Below, piece after piece: positions 6,558 to 25,290 of a DNA stretch of 36,076 nucleotides. This stretch comes from Parcubacteria group bacterium (GTDB taxonomy: Bacteria > Patescibacteriota > Minisyncoccia > Phycocordibacterales > Zambryskibacteraceae): assembly GCA_028286465.1 (NCBI GenBank), contig JAQBRN010000021.1:1-36076 (forward strand), written 5' to 3'. Under the pieces are notes generated by a model. It was not told the origin of the DNA. It saw only the letters and a program-made list of their open reading frames with translations, and did not search any database. Each line of letters begins with the position of its first letter. The first letter of the stretch is position 1. The position numbers and the translations under genes were made by a program.

Positions 6558-8726
6558 ATGGAACGAGATTATCCGCTTGAGAGAGTCAGAAACTTTGGTA
6601 TCGTCGCGCACGTCGACGCAGGCAAGACCACCACGTCCGAGCGTGTGCTTTTCTATACCGGATCCCAGCACAAGATCGGCGAGGTGCACGAGGGCGATAC
6701 GACCACTGACTGGATGGAACAGGAGAAGGAGCGCGGCATCACCATCACCGCGGCTGCCATCACCTGTTTCTGGGCTCCGAGCTACAAGACGGACGCTGAA
6801 CGCTTGAAGAAAGAAGAGAAGTACCGCTTTAATGTCATCGACACCCCGGGCCACATCGACTTCACCGTGGAAGTGAAGCGCTCCCTTAGAGTGCTCGACG
6901 GAGCAGTGGTCGTTTTCGACGGCGTGGCGGGCGTCGAACCTCAGTCCGAGACGAACTGGCGCTATGCGGAGGAAGCATCCGTGCCCCGCATCTGCTTCAT
7001 TAACAAGCTCGACAGAACGGGCGCATCATTCGAGCGCTCATATAAGACCATTCTCGACAGGCTTTCGAAGAAGGCCGTGCGTTTGCAGTTGCCGATCGGA
7101 GAAGAGGACAACCACGAGGGTATCGTCGACCTTCTCAAGATGAAGGCCTACTACTTCGAAGGCAATATGGGCTCGAATGTCGTCGAGAAGGACATTCCTG
7201 AGAATCTCCTTGCCGATGCCACGAAGTTTCGCGCCGAACTCGTCGAAAGGATCGTTGAGGATGATGCAGATCTCATGAATGCATATCTCGAAGGCAAGGA
7301 CATAGATATTTCCGTGCTCAAGGAAACATTGAGAAAGGCCGTCATCGGCAACAGGATCTTCCCGGTCATGGCCGGTTCCGCGCTCAAGAACAAGGGCGTG
7401 CAGCTCGTCCTCGACGCCGTCGTCGACCTGCTTCCGTCTCCTTTAGACATTCCTCCTATCGTCGGTACCGATCCGAACTCGGGTGAAGAGGTCGTCAGAC
7501 ACGCCTCGGACTCGGAGCCCTTCTCAGCACTCGCCTTCAAGCTCCAGGCTGACCCGTTCGTCGGACAGCTGACCTTCTTCCGCGTTTACTCGGGCACGAT
7601 CGAATCAGGTTCCTATATTTACAATTCAACCACGGGCAACAAGGAACGCCTCGGCCGCATCGTCCGCCTCCAGGCAGACAAGAGGGAAGAAGTGAAGAAA
7701 GTGTTCGCCGGAGAGATCGCCGCCGCCGTCGGTCTCAAGGAGGCAAAGACGTCTCACACCTTCTGCGATGAGAACAGCCCTATTATTCTCGACCAGATCA
7801 AGTTCCCAGAACCCGTCATCTCTCTCCGCATCGAACCGAAGACGAAGGCAGACCAGGAGAAGATGGGTATTGCACTCAAGCGCCTTTCGGATGAAGACCC
7901 GACCTTCCGCATCGAGTCCGATGCAGAAACGGCAGAGACCGTCATCAAGGGCATGGGAGAACTCCACCTTGAAATTATCGTCGACCGCATGAAGCGCGAA
8001 TTCGGCGTCGAGGCGAATGTCGGCAAGCCGCAGGTGGCCTACAAGGAAACGATCCTTGGCGAAGCCGAAGTCGACAACAAATACGTGAAGCAGACGGGAG
8101 GCAAGGGTCAGTACGGTCACGTGCGCATCAAGATCAAGCCGCTTCCTCAGTATGATCCAGAGGAGAAGGTGCCGAAGAACGCACACAGAGAACCGGGATT
8201 CGAATTCATCGATGCCATCAAGGGAGGCGTCATTCCTCAGGAATTCATTCCGGCTGTCGAGAAGGGAGTCAAAGAGGCTATGGAGCGCGGCATCCTTGCC
8301 GGCTACAAGATGGTCGACATCTCGGTCGAATTGAACTTCGGTTCGTATCACGACGTGGACTCATCCGAAATTGCCTACAAGATCGCCGCATCTCAGGCCT
8401 TCCAGGAAGCAGCTCGCAAAGCGAAGCCCGTTATCCTCGAGCCTGTCATGAAGGTCGAAGTGGTCGTCCCGGAGAAGTTCATGGGAGACATTACAGGTAA
8501 CCTTTCGGGGAAGCGCGGACAGATCGAGGCCATGGAAGATCGCGGAGACTTGAAGGACATTCGCGCCCAGGTGCCGCTCTCGGAAATGTTCGGCTACGTG
8601 ACGAACCTCCGTTCGATGACCGAAGGCCGCGGTTCTTCTACCATGGAATTCGACCACTACGCCGTCGTTCCTCAGAACGTGGCCACGACCATCATCGAAC
8701 AAAGAACAGGAGTGAAGGCTGCGTAA
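6558..8726 (+). CDS. fusA: translation elongation factor G
   Basis: NFGIVAHVDAGKTTTSERVLFYTG, DTPGHIDFTVEV, full-length 722 aa. Confidence 0.98.
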   Translation: MERDYPLERVRNFGIVAHVDAGKTTTSERVLFYTGSQHKIGEVHEGDTTTDWMEQEKERGITITAAAITCFWAPSYKTDAERLKKEEKYRFNVIDTPGHIDFTVEVKRSLRVLDGAVVVFDGVAGVEPQSETNWRYAEEASVPRICFINKLDRTGASFERSYKTILDRLSKKAVRLQLPIGEEDNHEGIVDLLKMKAYYFEGNMGSNVVEKDIPENLLADATKFRAELVERIVEDDADLMNAYLEGKDIDISVLKETLRKAVIGNRIFPVMAGSALKNKGVQLVLDAVVDLLPSPLDIPPIVGTDPNSGEEVVRHASDSEPFSALAFKLQADPFVGQLTFFRVYSGTIESGSYIYNSTTGNKERLGRIVRLQADKREEVKKVFAGEIAAAVGLKEAKTSHTFCDENSPIILDQIKFPEPVISLRIEPKTKADQEKMGIALKRLSDEDPTFRIESDAETAETVIKGMGELHLEIIVDRMKREFGVEANVGKPQVAYKETILGEAEVDNKYVKQTGGKGQYGHVRIKIKPLPQYDPEEKVPKNAHREPGFEFIDAIKGGVIPQEFIPAVEKGVKEAMERGILAGYKMVDISVELNFGSYHDVDSSEIAYKIAASQAFQEAARKAKPVILEPVMKVEVVVPEKFMGDITGNLSGKRGQIEAMEDRGDLKDIRAQVPLSEMFGYVTNLRSMTEGRGSSTMEFDHYAVVPQNVATTIIEQRTGVKAA

Positions 8727-8740
8727 TTTGGATGTATGAC

Positions 8741-8770
8741 GATCAAAAGACCCCAGTGATGGGGTCTTTT
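8741..8770 (+). terminator. intrinsic terminator AAAAGACCCCAGTGATGGGGTCTTTT
   Basis: Perfect stem and T-tract after fusA. Confidence 0.9.
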
Positions 8771-8777
8771 GATATAT

Positions 8778-8806
8778 TTGACATTTTTCTCAGAACGTGC
8801 TAAGAT
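8778..8806 (+). promoter_or_regulatory. promoter TTGACA-N17-TAAGAT
   Basis: Consensus -35, 17-nt spacer. Confidence 0.75.
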
Positions 8807-8855
8807 TAAGATAGGAGTTCCCAGTTCACCTTTTCTGGCTCTGCCAGGAGGCAGC

Positions 8856-9263
8856 ATGAAGATCCGGGGCAAGTTCAAATCGGGACCCGATGTGATGCCG
8901 TTTCAGATCATCGCAACCTTCGTCCGTTCGGGGGTCGAGGTGCTCGCGTTCGTGAACGTTCTCGGATTTCTCGTGACGGTCAGACCGTCGGAGGATAGCC
9001 AGAAGCCGGGCATCGGCGACAAGTGGCTCATCCAGCTCGTCGGCGATTTTTCGCTCGACCCGGATAACCGTAAAGCTTGGGTGACGGGGAGACTCCTGCG
9101 CCGAGCTGATGGCCGCCAAGCCGCTTCCTCTGGAAATGTTTCTGGCCTGGTTCGGTCGCACCTCGCTCCGCCGCCAACCAAGCGCATCGTGTCTACGAAT
9201 CATCGGGCACAGGAACGCAGCCGTGCGGCTTGCATGAAGCGGGGGAACAGGACGAGGGCCTAA
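8856..9263 (+). CDS. hypothetical protein
   Basis: SD AGGAGG before ATG; promoter upstream, terminator downstream. Confidence 0.6.
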   Translation: MKIRGKFKSGPDVMPFQIIATFVRSGVEVLAFVNVLGFLVTVRPSEDSQKPGIGDKWLIQLVGDFSLDPDNRKAWVTGRLLRRADGRQAASSGNVSGLVRSHLAPPPTKRIVSTNHRAQERSRAACMKRGNRTRA

Positions 9264-9270
9264 CCGCCCC

Positions 9271-9310
9271 GATCCGTTGGACGAAAAGTCCTGCGGTTCG
9301 GGGCTTTTCA
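9271..9310 (+). terminator. GCCCCGA...TCGGGGCTTTT hairpin
   Basis: Inverted repeat followed by T-rich run. Confidence 0.65.
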
Positions 9311-9361
9311 TTTTCTAAAAACATGGTATGGTTCTAAAAGAAAGAGAACCCGAGAGGATAT

Positions 9362-9667
9362 ATGGAATTCGTTTTCCCCTCCATTGAGAACATCGAAGAG
9401 ATCTTCGGCAAGGAATTCACGCTCGTCTTTAACCTCGAGTCCGTGCCTCGCGGCCCTTCAAGGAAGCCGGCCTTGCAATGGCAGGCCCACATGCTTCTCG
9501 GCAGGGAAAGGCAGCATGTGATTGTGGTTCCGGACAGGGCGTCCCACCATCAGCCGTCTGAGACGCTGCGTCATTTTCTCTCGAAGATCGAGACCACGCG
9601 GTACAAGCATCCCCAAGAGAAGTTTCAGATCGTCGATGCCAGCTTGCGTCCGTGCCCGTCCACCTAG
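9362..9667 (+). CDS. hypothetical protein (101 aa)
   Basis: SD GAGAGGATAT; stop within terminator hairpin. Confidence 0.65.
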   Translation: MEFVFPSIENIEEIFGKEFTLVFNLESVPRGPSRKPALQWQAHMLLGRERQHVIVVPDRASHHQPSETLRHFLSKIETTRYKHPQEKFQIVDASLRPCPST

Positions 9668-9679
9668 GGCGGGCTTTTT
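9654..9679 (+). terminator. GCCCGTCC-acctA-GGGCGGGC-TTTTT
   Basis: 8-bp stem; TAG stop at loop/3' arm. Confidence 0.85.
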
Positions 9680-9728
9680 GTTTTCTTATATATCGAGTAC
9701 ATTAGTGTCAGAGACATCGGAGAGGCCA

Positions 9729-9986
9729 ATGTTTGATATCGAAGCTATCAAAAGCTCGCGGCCTCTCCTGAAATTCGTATGGGATGAGGCGTATGAGCGG
9801 TGGCAGGCGAAAGTCACCGTCGAAGGCGTGAGGGTGGTATACGTGCTCGATAATTCATGTAACCAGCCCTTCACCCCCGAACCTGGAAAGAAGAATTATT
9901 TCGAATGCCGCGTCACCCGGGTGCTCCTGGCCCGATCGCGACCGAGCTTCTATCTCGTCGGGGTTGCTATCTTGGGCCTTCCCTAA
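9729..9986 (+). CDS. hypothetical protein (85 aa)
   Basis: SD GGAGAGG; MFDIEAIKSSRPLLKFVWDEAYERW...; stop within terminator hairpin. Confidence 0.65.
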   Translation: MFDIEAIKSSRPLLKFVWDEAYERWQAKVTVEGVRVVYVLDNSCNQPFTPEPGKKNYFECRVTRVLLARSRPSFYLVGVAILGLP

Positions 9987-9996
9987 GGCCCTTTTT
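9974..9996 (+). terminator. GGGCCTT-ccct-AAGGCCC-TTTTT
   Basis: 7-bp perfect stem; TAA stop at loop/3' arm. Confidence 0.9.
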
Positions 9997-10046
9997 CTTT
10001 GGCTTGTTTTAGGCTAGAGTACGCGAGGACCAATCTCGGAGAATCT

Positions 10047-10358
10047 ATGTACACAGGCGGCGGTGACGATCTGCCAGGGAAGGATGTTCCTTCCCATGTT
10101 ATCCCGACGGACAGCGAGAGATGGAAGCTTCTTCGCGGAGCTTTCGTGGGAGCGAACTCACTGAGGATCGTGGAACTTCTCGAGGCCGGGGAGAACACCC
10201 CGCTTCTCATCAAGGATCATCCCTGGATCAAGAAGGGGATGCTTGGCGGTATGAATACGGCTCTGTATCAAAAGAGCATCGGCTTCATGCTCAAGCGCGT
10301 CTACGACAAGCTCCCGTGGGCGGAGCAGGCCGTCAGGTTCGTCGAAGTGGAACGCTAG
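10047..10358 (+). CDS. hypothetical protein (103 aa)
   Basis: MYTGGGDDLPGKDVPSHVIP...; SD GGAGAA; terminator abuts stop. Confidence 0.65.
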   Translation: MYTGGGDDLPGKDVPSHVIPTDSERWKLLRGAFVGANSLRIVELLEAGENTPLLIKDHPWIKKGMLGGMNTALYQKSIGFMLKRVYDKLPWAEQAVRFVEVER

Positions 10359-10382
10359 CGCCCAACGGAACGGGCGCTTTTT
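10357..10382 (+). terminator. AGCGCCC-aacggaac-GGGCGCT-TTTT
   Basis: Perfect stem starting in the TAG stop. Confidence 0.88.
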
Positions 10383-10441
10383 GTTTGACTTTATCTTTCC
10401 AAGACTCCATCCTGTGGCAAGAACCGGACCTTGGGGGTTAT

Positions 10442-11026
10442 ATGAGCCTGACCGAAGAAATGCATGGCTCCATGAAGGCGGATATCAGGTATTGGCACAA
10501 GAGATTGCCATACCTCGCCGATCCGAATCTCATCCCGACCTGGAGAACGCTCGAGACGGGAAGTCTATCGGCCGGCCTGATGCATAATGCGATGCAGGCG
10601 AAGGGCATCAAGGCCAATCTCGATGATATACGCGCCGCGAAGAACCACGCGGCCGCGGTGCCTCGCCGGAGCGAACTCGTAAGAGTGGGTCACCGCTTCC
10701 TGGAAGGTCTGGCTCCGGGCCTCGCCCGTGAGGCAGTGTTCGAACGCTCTCACATCTTCGGCCTCAGGCTGTGCTTGCCGGACATCGGCCCGGAGCTCAG
10801 GCTCGCATATGACGATCAGCCGGAGAAAGACGACGTCTCGATAGCCATGTACCCGCAGCCTGCGGTACATGGCTACATCTTCGTACTTGGAAACAACGGT
10901 TCCCATGGTACGGGGAAGTACCTTATCGGTCATTCCGGCAGCGACGACTGGCGGCCCTGGACGTGGATGGGCACTCCGTACCTCCGTGACTGGATTTTCG
11001 AGAAGATTCCCGCCCCGCAGCTCTAG
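10442..11026 (+). CDS. hypothetical protein (194 aa)
   Basis: MSLTEEMHGSMKADIRYWHKRL...; SD-like GGGGG; stop inside terminator loop. Confidence 0.7.
   Translation: MSLTEEMHGSMKADIRYWHKRLPYLADPNLIPTWRTLETGSLSAGLMHNAMQAKGIKANLDDIRAAKNHAAAVPRRSELVRVGHRFLEGLAPGLAREAVFERSHIFGLRLCLPDIGPELRLAYDDQPEKDDVSIAMYPQPAVHGYIFVLGNNGSHGTGKYLIGHSGSDDWRPWTWMGTPYLRDWIFEKIPAPQL
10843..10874. repeat. near-perfect inverted repeat AGCCATGTACcCGCAG / CTGCGGTACATGGCT
   Basis: 15-bp arms with one bulged base, inside a CDS. Confidence 0.8.
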
Positions 11027-11039
11027 CTGCGGGATTTTG
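11013..11039 (+). terminator. CCCGCAG-ctctag-CTGCGGG-ATTTTG
   Basis: Perfect stem; TAG stop in loop. Confidence 0.85.
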
Positions 11040-11040
11040 T

Positions 11041-11068: not shown

Positions 11069-11074
11069 GTGCCG

Positions 11075-11272
11075 TAGCTCATATACGGCTTAGGTCTGAT
11101 CTTTGAGATCCTCTCACAAGGCTTTTCTAAGCGGTTTTATGCGCTCCCGCTTGCTCCCGAACGCAATTGCGTGAGGGCGGGCAGGCTATTCCTACTCAAG
11201 GAAGGCAATGGTTCTCGCGCGCCTCCCTTGTCGAGGAATGACTACTAACAACTATTAATATCACTATTATTT
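11075..11272 (+). promoter_or_regulatory. about 200-nt structured 5' leader of tuf (candidate cis-regulatory RNA)
   Basis: Long non-coding leader with GCCGTA..TACGGC and CAAGGAAGGC..GCCTCCCTTG pairings. Confidence 0.4.
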
Positions 11273-12469
11273 ATGGCAGATTTTGACCGTTCAAAGCCGC
11301 ACGTAAACGTCGGTACCATCGGCCACGTTGACCACGGCAAGACCACTCTTACGGCTGCGATTCTTAACGTCCTCTTACGTGAGGGCAATGGTTACGGTTC
11401 GGTAGTGAAAGGTGTCGACCAGATCGACAACTCCCCGGAGGAGAAGGCTCGCGGTATTACGATCGCGCTTTCGCACTCGGAATACTGGACACCAGAGCGT
11501 CACTACGCACACATTGATGCTCCGGGCCACGCAGACTACATCAAGAACATGATCACCGGTGCCGCTCAGATGGATGGAGCAGTCCTCGTGGTTGCTGCAA
11601 CTGACGGTGTTATGCCTCAGACTCGTGAGCATATTCTCCTCGCAAAGCAGGTCGGCGTGCCTAAGATCATCGTCTTCCTTAACAAGTGCGATATGGTTCC
11701 CGACACGGAACTCATCGATCTCGTAGAAGAGGAAGTCCGCGATCTCTTGAAGAAGTATGACTTTGATGGCGCTACAGCTCCGGTTATCCGCGGCTCAGCT
11801 CTCAAGGCACTTGAAGCCAAGGACAACACAGACGAGTGGTCAATGAAGATCATGGAGCTTGCAAAGGCGCTTGATACCTACATTCCTACCCCTGTTCGTG
11901 ATCTCGATAAGCCATTCCTCATGCCTATCGAAGACATTTTCTCAATCGAAGGACGCGGTACTGTGGTCACCGGCCGTATCGAAAGAGGTGTCTGCAAAGT
12001 CGGCGAAGAAGTTGAGATCGTTGGTCTTAAGGACACCGCGAAGACGACCATCACCGGTATCGAAATGTTCAACAAGCAGCTCCAGCAGGGCCAGGCAGGC
12101 GACAACGCCGGCATTCTCCTCAGAGGCGTGAAGAAAGAAGACCTTCATCGCGGTCAGGTTATCGCGAAGCCGGGTTCAGTGAAGCCTCACACCGAGTTCA
12201 CCGCCGAAGTCTACATCCTGAAGAAGGAAGAAGGCGGCCGCCACACTCCGTTCTTCACGGGCTACAAGCCTCAGTTCTACGTCCGTACGACCGACGTGAC
12301 CGGGGAAGTGGCGCTCGATGCAGGCGTTGAGATGGTCATGCCAGGCGACACGGCAACCTTCAATGTGAAGCTCGTCGCACCGATCGTCTTGGAAGAGCAG
12401 CAGCGCTTCACCGTCCGCGAGGGTGGTAAGACTGTCGGCGCAGGCGTGGTGACCAAGGTCATCGCATAA
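11273..12469 (+). CDS. tuf: translation elongation factor Tu
   Basis: [42 protein letters not shown], 398 aa. Confidence 0.98.
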
Positions 12470-15430: not shown

Positions 15431-15634
15431 ATGACAAGCGGCGAAGCGATCACTCTCTATCGTGAGACGCGAAAAGCGCGACGGCCGTCAAGGGAATCTC
15501 TGGAACATGCCCGGCTTATGTCCGAAGCGAAGAGGGAATATGAGCGCATGCTCGCAGAGCCTCCAAAAAGCGTGTGGCCGCTCGGCGCGCGAGCAAGACC
15601 CGCTGCGGTCAAAAAGAATACCCCGTCGAAATGA
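15431..15634 (+). CDS. hypothetical protein (67 aa, basic)
   Basis: SD GGGAGGAAC; stop inside terminator hairpin. Confidence 0.6.
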   Translation: MTSGEAITLYRETRKARRPSRESLEHARLMSEAKREYERMLAEPPKSVWPLGARARPAAVKKNTPSK

Positions 15635-15712: not shown

Positions 15713-16231
15713 ATGCCCCGACAGATTCCCCGAACGATCCGCCGTCGCGTGCGCCGCGGTGCAAAGCGTCTCGATTACGTTCGTCCCGGCTGGGCGAAGC
15801 GCATTGACGTCGATCGGTTGGATATCAGCTACGACAAGGACTGTATCGCCGGCCAGCTCGAAGGAAGCTTCGGAAGCGGATACCACCGTCTGAATCTTCC
15901 TGGCGACAGCATCCAGAACGGGATGCAGTGTGATCGCTCGATGAGAGAGCATGCACTCCTGACCCGAGCCTGGAAGGAGGAGGTCGGCGAGCGTACTCCG
16001 TCTCGCGGCCCACAGAATCGATTCGGACTGCTCCGTCGGTTCGTCAACTCGCTTCCGCTTTTGCGGAGGCGTTTTTTATTTGCAATTTTTATTAAAAACT
16101 GTAAAGTAGTGCCCATAAGGTCGAAGACAGAAGGCGAGCGCAAGCTCTTAATCACCGCCTTCCGAGACTACTCCCGCTCCTATTTTGGATGTCGAGGCCT
16201 TATAGAGGTCTATTCGTTCGTTAATTATTAG
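15713..16231 (+). CDS. hypothetical basic protein; ORF reads through terminator and L10 leader
   Basis: SD AAGGAGAG before ATG; no in-frame stop before terminator at 16050-16077, so the true 3' end is uncertain. Confidence 0.4.
   Translation: MPRQIPRTIRRRVRRGAKRLDYVRPGWAKRIDVDRLDISYDKDCIAGQLEGSFGSGYHRLNLPGDSIQNGMQCDRSMREHALLTRAWKEEVGERTPSRGPQNRFGLLRRFVNSLPLLRRRFLFAIFIKNCKVVPIRSKTEGERKLLITAFRDYSRSYFGCRGLIEVYSFVNY
16050..16077 (+). terminator. CGCTTCCGC-tttt-GCGGAGGCG-TTTTTT
   Basis: 9-bp stem and T6. Confidence 0.88.
16080..16107 (+). promoter_or_regulatory. rplJ operon promoter TTGCAA-N16-TAAAGT
   Basis: -35/-10 between terminator and L10 leader. Confidence 0.55.
16117..16178 (+). promoter_or_regulatory. 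ribosomal protein L10 leader (autoregulatory kink-turn element)
   Basis: GAAGACAGAAGGCG-AGCGCAAGCTCTTAATCAC-CGCCTTCCGAGAC pattern upstream of rplJ-rplL. Confidence 0.85.
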
Positions 16232-18869: not shown

Positions 18870-19478
18870 ATGCAGAAGACTGCAGAGCAGGCCGAAAGCG
18901 TCCGCAACGCCACGCAGGCGAACAAGGGCTTGGAGCTCGAATACGTCGAGACCATGCTTCTGAAGTTCACGCTTGGAACTCGCGAGGAGGTGCTCCCGGG
19001 CATCCCGGAGATCCGCCGCGACTCGCAGCGCGAGCTCGACAATCAGCATCTGACCGAGCTCGAGCACGAAGAACAGGACATCCGCGTTGCCAATCGCAAG
19101 GCGATGCGCGGACGGGTTCGCCCCGGCCACATCGACACGGGCTTCCCGGTCTACAACCGTGAAGAGGGCGTCAGCGTTCCGACTCTGGCCGAAGGTCTGA
19201 TGCGGAACGGCTACGGCTTCCGCGACGTGCACTTCTTCGAACAGAAGAAGGGCCGTTCGCTCTGGGTCGTCGTCTTCGCGTTCGAGTTCGGCAAGCCGAA
19301 CGCCGAGAACGTCGACGAGCTCACGAAGATGTACGCTCAGTACGCGGCGAACAGTTACACCGCCGACGTCTGGGACAACCCGACGCTGACGTCGACTGTC
19401 AACCTGACTCGTCGTCAGCGCGGCCGTGCCCGCCGCAAGGTCGTCGTCGCGAGTGGCAAGTACGTTCGCATCGTCTAG
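18870..19478 (+). CDS. hypothetical protein (202 aa)
   Basis: SD TTGGAGAA; promoter and terminator flank. Confidence 0.7.
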   Translation: MQKTAEQAESVRNATQANKGLELEYVETMLLKFTLGTREEVLPGIPEIRRDSQRELDNQHLTELEHEEQDIRVANRKAMRGRVRPGHIDTGFPVYNREEGVSVPTLAEGLMRNGYGFRDVHFFEQKKGRSLWVVVFAFEFGKPNAENVDELTKMYAQYAANSYTADVWDNPTLTSTVNLTRRQRGRARRKVVVASGKYVRIV

Positions 19479-24397: not shown

Positions 24398-24461
24398 TTA
24401 GAAGTGTACTTCCCATCATCTGATCCGGAGTCCTTATATGATTTGGTTCCTTGGAGACATC

Positions 24462-24980
24462 ATGAATGAGATCAATGCCGTTGATCTCTCTACTTCAGAA
24501 GCACCGTCAAATCCAATAGCTCGGGGGCGACCCCTCGGTGTCCTGCCTGACGATCTGAAGCGCCTTTGGGTTGTGACGCATCGTGCGTACAACAAGCTCG
24601 AGTTGATCGAGAACGAGACAATCGACCCTTGCGAACCAACCGAAGACGGGCCGGACCACTTCACTCGGAAATTCCGAGCAGAGATCAAGCATCAGACCCT
24701 CGTCACCTGCTTCCACCAGTCGATCAGGGAGAGCATGCCGGAAGCGGCCGCAATGAACATCTCAGCCATCGCTTTGGGCTGGCAGGTGATAACGACTTCT
24801 CCTGAGCACCCGATGCAGTATCCGGGATTTAATCAGGCCTGTGATCCGACTCCTCTCGACGAGATCATCCTGACCGAAGAAGAGAAAGTCCTTCTCGATC
24901 CGGCTTTCGTCGATGAATCGATCAGTAAGGCCATGGAGGCAGTCAGAGAAAGTAATGGCAATCCCCAAGCCGGCGAGTGA
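24462..24980 (+). CDS. hypothetical protein (172 aa) inserted in spc operon
   Basis: MNEINAVDLSTSEAPSNPIARGRPLGVLPDDLKRLW; SD GGAGAC; stop in terminator loop; RyR-like resemblance not verifiable here. Confidence 0.7.
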   Translation: MNEINAVDLSTSEAPSNPIARGRPLGVLPDDLKRLWVVTHRAYNKLELIENETIDPCEPTEDGPDHFTRKFRAEIKHQTLVTCFHQSIRESMPEAAAMNISAIALGWQVITTSPEHPMQYPGFNQACDPTPLDEIILTEEEKVLLDPAFVDESISKAMEAVRESNGNPQAGE

Positions 24981-24993
24981 GCCGGTTTTTTTA
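24968..24993 (+). terminator. CCGGC-gagtga-GCCGG-TTTTTTT
   Basis: 5-bp GC stem; TGA stop in loop; T7. Confidence 0.85.
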
Positions 24994-24997
24994 TATA

Positions 24998-25025
24998 AAA
25001 ACACCTCGCGGATGCGGGGTGTTTC
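24998..25025 (-). terminator. AAACACC...GGTGTTTTT terminator for minus-strand gene
   Basis: AACACCTCGCGGATGCGGGGTGTTT inverted repeat. Confidence 0.75.
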
Positions 25026-25290
25026 AGCGGGTGAACTTGTGTTTTGTGCGCTCGACCGCCTGAAGGATGGCTTTGACGCCGACATACGTTCTGATGCCGA
25101 ACTCGAGTTTCGGCGCATCCGGACGTGAAAGGGAAAGGGTGCTGACGGGAAGGCCGCGCTTGCGCAGTTCTTGGACCATCTTCCAAGCTTTCTGGTCTGC
25201 CGAGTTGAACCAGATGCGGTAGCTGGTCTCGGGCCTTACTTCGGGACGCGGTTTGGTCCTTCCGCGGATGAAAGGGGAGCGCCTTGGCAT
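25024..25290 (-). CDS. hypothetical protein (88 aa)
   Basis: [42 protein letters not shown]... Confidence 0.6.

Follow-up and report, generated by a model that had tools for sequence, protein, structure and literature searches.

The DNA analysed here, called the window below, is a stretch of 36,076 nucleotides that corresponds to contig 8 of the source genome, a Parcubacteria group bacterium (G000; 730 kb, assembly 96% complete). In this window the elongation factor genes fusA and tuf are separated by five consecutive short open reading frames, named c1 to c5. All five had been listed in an earlier, sequence-only reading of this DNA, and all five are open. The features of the locus are as follows.

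6558-8726, plus strand: fusA (EF-G), the left conserved flank, from the ORF list and aligned in relatives
8742-8773, plus strand: intrinsic terminator of fusA, 14-bp stem and T-rich tail
8778-8806, plus strand: c1 promoter (TTGACA, 17 nt, TAAGAT), starting 5 nt past the fusA terminator stem
8846-8851, plus strand: c1 Shine-Dalgarno motif, AGGAGG
8856-9263, plus strand: c1, 135 aa
9283-9309, plus strand: c1 terminator, 19 nt 3' of the stop codon
9352-9358, plus strand: c2 Shine-Dalgarno-like motif, GAGAGGA
9362-9667, plus strand: c2, 101 aa
9654-9674, plus strand: c2 terminator, with the TAG stop within the loop
9719-9725, plus strand: c3 Shine-Dalgarno motif, GGAGAGG
9729-9986, plus strand: c3, 85 aa, an orphan with a low coding score
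9974-9991, plus strand: c3 terminator, with the TAA stop at the loop
10038-10042, plus strand: c4 Shine-Dalgarno motif, GGAGA
10047-10358, plus strand: c4, 103 aa, an orphan
10357-10378, plus strand: c4 terminator, its foot overlapping the stop codon
10442-11026, plus strand: c5, 194 aa, a relative of the target proteins of diversity-generating retroelements (DGRs), without a clear Shine-Dalgarno motif
11014-11033, plus strand: c5 terminator, with the TAG stop at the loop
11041-11068, plus strand: tuf promoter (TTGACT, 16 nt, TAGTAT), starting 8 nt past the c5 terminator stem
11273-12469, plus strand: tuf (EF-Tu), the right conserved flank

The coding score was calculated per codon by comparing a gene's own frame with the five other frames in a codon model. 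The own frame was the best for all five ORFs (c1 0.100, c2 0.113, c3 0.030, c4 0.238, c5 0.137), the value for c3 being weak. A hairpin with a T tract lies 3' of each ORF (stems of -11.9 to -16.9 kcal/mol), and the 2.7 kb region contains 8 terminator-like sites as compared to 2.5 in shuffled sequences. It had been suggested that most of the ORFs possess their own promoter, Shine-Dalgarno motif and terminator. This holds for the terminators of all five and for the Shine-Dalgarno motifs of c1-c4, but not for that of c5, and as for promoters it holds for c1 only: a strict sigma-70 scan detected promoters upstream of c1 (8778) and tuf (11041) and none upstream of c2-c5, where the promoters are weak by consensus. 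The tuf promoter is conserved in the alignment of relatives. The five ORFs had also been said to resemble no family, which agrees with the lack of Pfam and NCBIfam matches but is not correct for c5, a relative of the DGR target family. The window has no Rfam matches at curated thresholds.

The leader of tuf (window 11069-11272) carries a conserved box, TCTTTGAGATYCTCTCAATA, despite the differing cassettes upstream. It also has a hairpin, with a variable paired stem and a constant loop, GGTTCTCGCGC, that is found in most, not all, family members. There is no Rfam match to this leader at the curated cut-off, and the hairpin was not recovered when the complete leader alignment was folded automatically to a consensus. 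We regard the leader as a candidate regulatory element of the tuf-S10 operon.

The tuf region was retrieved from 40 relatives, and the fusA-tuf gap could be measured in 31 genomes. The order of the ribosomal protein and elongation factor genes is kept in most genomes, while the spaces at the operon junctions vary. Gaps within operons (tuf-rpsJ, rplV-rpsC) are mostly a few tens of bases; the fusA-tuf spacing ranges from 150 to 5002 bp. The content of this gap is different in every relative, and three genomes have nearly empty sites (G020, 174 bp; G030, 211 bp; G054, 150 bp). Since the spacing varies between conserved flanks, the insertion hotspot proposed earlier is real, i.e. fusA-tuf is a variable genomic hotspot with conserved flanks and differing content. 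The gene order c1-c5 is not conserved in the relatives. A homolog search in 60 relatives showed that only c2 and c5 have relatives in another genome's fusA-tuf gap: c2 has a short match in G001 (36 aa, 42% identity) and c5 a distant homolog in G012. The only homolog of c1 was found at another site, after mscS in G003 (36-42% identity), and c3 and c4 had no homolog among the 60 relatives. The same families occur in different translation-operon gaps of different genomes; a two-gene unit, for example, is found in the rpsG-fusA gap of G001 and in the rplB-rplJ gap of G021. Where a pair of sequences exists there is constraint at the protein level, as seen for c1 of G000 and G003 (dN 0.58, dS 1.70, dN/dS about 0.34).

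The array turned out to exemplify a class of genes that extends over the whole genome and that the sequence-only reading had missed. Genes were called with a home-made codon-model caller in 664 of the 730 kb of the source genome and in all of Parcubacteria bacterium C7867-005 (G002), a member of the same genus that was used as the sister genome. Genes of G000 with a match in G002 were termed shared (385), those without a match accessory (343). An own intrinsic terminator is present in 177 of the 343 accessory genes and in 51 of the 385 shared genes (p 1e-29), as compared to 5 and 1.7, respectively, in shuffled controls. The hairpin includes the stop codon in 44 accessory genes, with 1.0 expected, and in 2 shared genes. 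A TTGAC sequence, the core of the -35 box, follows the terminator stem within 10 nt in 22 cases in G000, with about 1.5 expected. The units are found on nearly all contigs and form ten same-strand runs of at least three units; the longest is c1-c5, and no other run exceeds three. The accessory class is real and is distinct from the shared genes in several independent traits. The fusA-tuf site resembles known variable hotspots in its conserved flanks, genome-specific content and near-empty sites; it differs from them in that no integrase or tRNA site was seen and the content consists of single-gene units, and the class is spread across nearly all contigs instead of lying in islands.

Pfam matches were obtained for at most about one fifth of 100 members of the class; the 27 families concerned overlap in part and are represented by one match each. 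A viral origin was rejected as the 100 members gave 13 PHROG families with one match each, a rate not above that of Pfam; in addition, c1, c4 and the unit d3 described below had no relatives in viral contigs. Defence islands were rejected likewise, PADLOC giving only single weak matches, and so was a self-copying paralogous element, since only 20 of the 343 accessory genes have a paralog.

Tandem single-gene units, mostly orphans and with hairpins at the gene ends, are reminiscent of the cassettes of an integron. A site-specific cassette system of this kind is nevertheless extremely improbable. No repeats were found within the array, and the 177 units share no boundary repeat apart from promoter, Shine-Dalgarno motif and T tract. 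Paired R''/R' attC-like boxes are present in 0% of the 177 units and 0% of the shared genes, and the candidate boxes at the end of c1 (GCCTAAC...GTTGGAC) occur at background frequencies and were discarded. The hairpins have T tracts and are thus terminators, and the units, dispersed over nearly all contigs, carry their own signals, i.e. Shine-Dalgarno motifs and, in some cases, promoters. The idea of integron-style cassettes is therefore not supported.

The location of the terminator at or over the stop codon in 44 accessory genes of G000 is a layout of the runaway transcription type. Termination in E. coli falls from about 90% to less than 10% when a stop codon lies 5 bp upstream of the terminator (PMC4824070), which argues that terminators placed at the stop depend on coupling and need uncoupled ribosomes to function. 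In B. subtilis, where RNA polymerase outruns the ribosomes, the distances between stop and terminator are short (PMC7858274). The units might accordingly be ordinary resident genes of an organism with runaway transcription. Rho was not found in G000 or in the 18 family members searched, which fits this explanation (weak matches in other families were below the cut-off). However, the terminators of the shared genes in the same genome are located further off (median 17 nt from the stop, 2 of 51 overlapping), so that the layout, in contrast to B. subtilis, marks the accessory class and not the organism. As a control, none of 17 terminators found in a set of 92 annotated E. coli genes lay over the stop, and the purine bias that is a sign of runaway transcription was not seen in G000 (0.51). 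We consider this explanation quite unlikely.

The class is also set apart by its Shine-Dalgarno motifs, which are present in 69% of the self-terminated accessory genes in G000 and in 67% in G002, against a background of 9%. In shared genes with matched gaps the motif was found in 7-8% of those without a terminator; in the genome-wide count of shared genes that follow a gap the figures were 8% without (n=108) and 20% with a terminator (n=25). Nearly all ribosomal protein genes of the window lack an evident motif at the usual distance. The split persists when the starts are chosen without a Shine-Dalgarno term (51-53% of the class and 4-9% of shared genes in G000), which rules out a bias of the start caller. 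The E. coli control gave 64%. The same trend is seen in G006 and in other family members.

The Shine-Dalgarno motifs do not have a counterpart in the resident 16S rRNA. The 16S gene is full length according to Rfam and its tail in the genus is GUGGAGUAAUUCAAUU, as compared to GGAUCACCUCCUUA in E. coli. CCUCC was absent from the tail in all 30 members of the order in which the 3' end was read (L215-L244), and the sole CCUCC in the 16S rRNA of G000 lies near position 121. Genomes without an anti-Shine-Dalgarno sequence generally lack Shine-Dalgarno motifs (Amin et al. 2018, PMC6107228). The present genomes resemble the bacteria of that study in their 16S tail without CCUCC and in core genes without the motif, but differ from them in that half to two thirds of the self-terminated accessory genes keep it. 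In a small search of open papers we found no report on the loss of the anti-Shine-Dalgarno sequence in this group. The inability of the motif to pair with the resident 16S rRNA is what makes the units look imported.

The question of origin was approached in the AT-rich sister genome, since in the GC-rich source genome (own GC3 0.68) the GC3 of the class equals that of the genome itself and the composition is uninformative. In G002 the GC3 is 0.71 for self-terminated accessory genes and 0.42 for shared genes; values above 0.6 were found in 31 of 39 and in 2 of 341 genes, respectively, and TGA stops in 41% and 10%. The codon usage of the G002 class correlates poorly with that of its own shared genes (r 0.355) and well with the class of G000 (r 0.915). 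The gene in the fusA-tuf gap of G002 also belongs to the high-GC3 class (GC3 0.82). High-GC3 accessory genes of this genome carry Shine-Dalgarno motifs in 77% of cases with a terminator and in 58% without, as compared to 12-14% of the accessory genes with host-like GC3. The simplest reading of this split would be import followed by drift. We note that not all gap ORFs are foreign-looking, as their GC3 across relatives correlates with that of the host (r 0.72).

High-GC3 genes of thymidylate kinase, ThyX and SAICAR synthetase are located at C2:90761-92347 and C1:80766-81356 of the AT-rich G002. A search of 84,980 species genomes revealed no close relative of the class ThyX outside its own genome. 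No donor of the imported-looking genes thus came to light, either here or, for c1, c4 and d3, in viral contigs, which weighs against import.

These observations bear on the suggestion that the units result from lineage-specific gene birth from intergenic DNA. It is true that little or no homology to c2-c4 is found elsewhere, and the low proportion of Pfam matches in the class is in line with such an origin. On the other hand, newly born genes are not expected to have Shine-Dalgarno motifs where the lineage makes no use of them, nor foreign codon usage in an AT-rich sister genome. Some members are established enzymes, such as the three just mentioned, and purifying selection is seen where it is testable. 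Gene birth is thus unsupported as the source of the class, and we regard it as improbable.

Related single units had also been reported at 15431, 15713, 18870 and 24462. The units at 18870 and 24462 are sound and that at 15713 has homologs in the same position; a coding signal is lacking at 15431.

15713-16231, plus strand: d2, with homologs in the same rplB-rplJ gap of G005, G006 and G007
18870-19478, plus strand: d3, GC3 0.84, Shine-Dalgarno motif TGGAGAA, with homologs after mscS in G002, G004, G005 and G006
24462-24980, plus strand: d4, inside the spc operon, with the stop codon within its own terminator

The statement that such units always lie between operons is contradicted by d4, located between rplE and rpsN. 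In the window (24438-25290) the spc operon is split at this point by two convergent accessory units.

Unit d3 follows mscS in five members of the genus. Its Shine-Dalgarno motif is kept in four of them (G000, G002, G004, G005), in which the proteins are 33-61% identical, and its GC3 is far above that of the host in G002 (0.85 vs 0.46) and higher than that of the host in G005 (0.61 vs 0.45). Synonymous divergence between G004 and G005 is close to saturation (dS 1.35), and the persistence of the motif at the same site would fit selective upkeep. These data agree with a maintained second expression class, i.e. with resident genes whose motif is read by an unknown element of the ribosome or in special conditions. 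The order of the two protein modules, however, is A-B in G000 and G002 and B-A in G004 and G005, which suggests separate arrivals, so the persistence may reflect either repeated arrival or selective upkeep. A second class is also difficult to reconcile with the 16S tails that lack CCUCC in 30 of 30 relatives, with the single distant CCUCC of G000, with the absence of the motif from host-like-GC3 accessory genes of G002 and with the general co-absence of motif and anti-motif (PMC6107228), and we consider it unlikely. Very unlikely, in our opinion, is the related possibility that the class is kept for Shine-Dalgarno-using ribosomes, which would belong either to a host or partner cell or, in a specialised form, to the symbiont itself; GC-rich codons, motif and terminator would then be kept because the genes are meant for such ribosomes. 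The single-sequence structure model of d3 was unusable (pLDDT 38).

Taken together, we think it probable, if by no means certain, that these self-contained, lineage-specific units, of which the array forms the longest run, were imported from a GC-rich, Shine-Dalgarno-using gene pool. A unit consists of a Shine-Dalgarno motif, a short ORF and an intrinsic terminator on or near the stop codon, some units having in addition a sigma-70 promoter right after the preceding terminator. Such genes would arrive by horizontal transfer as complete units, the most ordinary guess for their entry being uptake followed by illegitimate or flank-guided recombination. Their persistence at fusA-tuf and similar junctions would be due to insulation of the core genes by the flanking terminator and by the strong promoter of tuf, and after arrival their GC3 and Shine-Dalgarno motifs would drift toward the recipient pattern.

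Patescibacteria have an abundance of genes without known origin. The signature described here has four parts: an own terminator, a stop codon in the terminator, a Shine-Dalgarno motif in a lineage devoid of the anti-Shine-Dalgarno sequence and, in AT-rich hosts, foreign GC3. With it, lineage-specific arrivals can be told from resident genes on the basis of the sequence only, and the source of these orphan genes becomes testable, as does the question whether a Shine-Dalgarno motif can matter to ribosomes that are unable to pair with it.

The c5 protein deserves separate mention. A profile built from c5 and its relatives matched 68 of 247 genomes of the order, and many of the matches are accompanied, 0.4-2 kb away, by a further match to the 45 final positions. 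The mismatches of these repeat pairs fall on template adenines (24/24, 18/18, 14/14, 20/20, 20/20 and 10/10); in other words, the VR/TR pairs of c5-family targets differ almost solely at template adenines, which is the signature of a DGR. VR/TR pairs are found beside c5-family genes in L185, L187, L198, L199, L203, L205, L207, L209 and L212. DGRs are common in Patescibacteria (DGR clade 2, PMC8144416), and by its profile similarity c5 is assigned to the sequence family of their targets. It differs from them in that its relatives carry VR/TR pairs, whereas a blastn search for a template repeat of c5 in 664 of the 730 kb returned only c5 itself and a local palindrome, and no DGR reverse transcriptase (PF00078) was detected in G000, the control being positive in 4 of 14 genomes. 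It is for these reasons that c5 is an orphan of the DGR target family. The structure model of c5 (pLDDT 76) has C-type lectins as its best PDB matches, which are weak (E 0.17 at best). A c5-family paralog in the source genome (C20:26940-27418), also without a template repeat, is apparently split over two frames, possibly by a frameshift.
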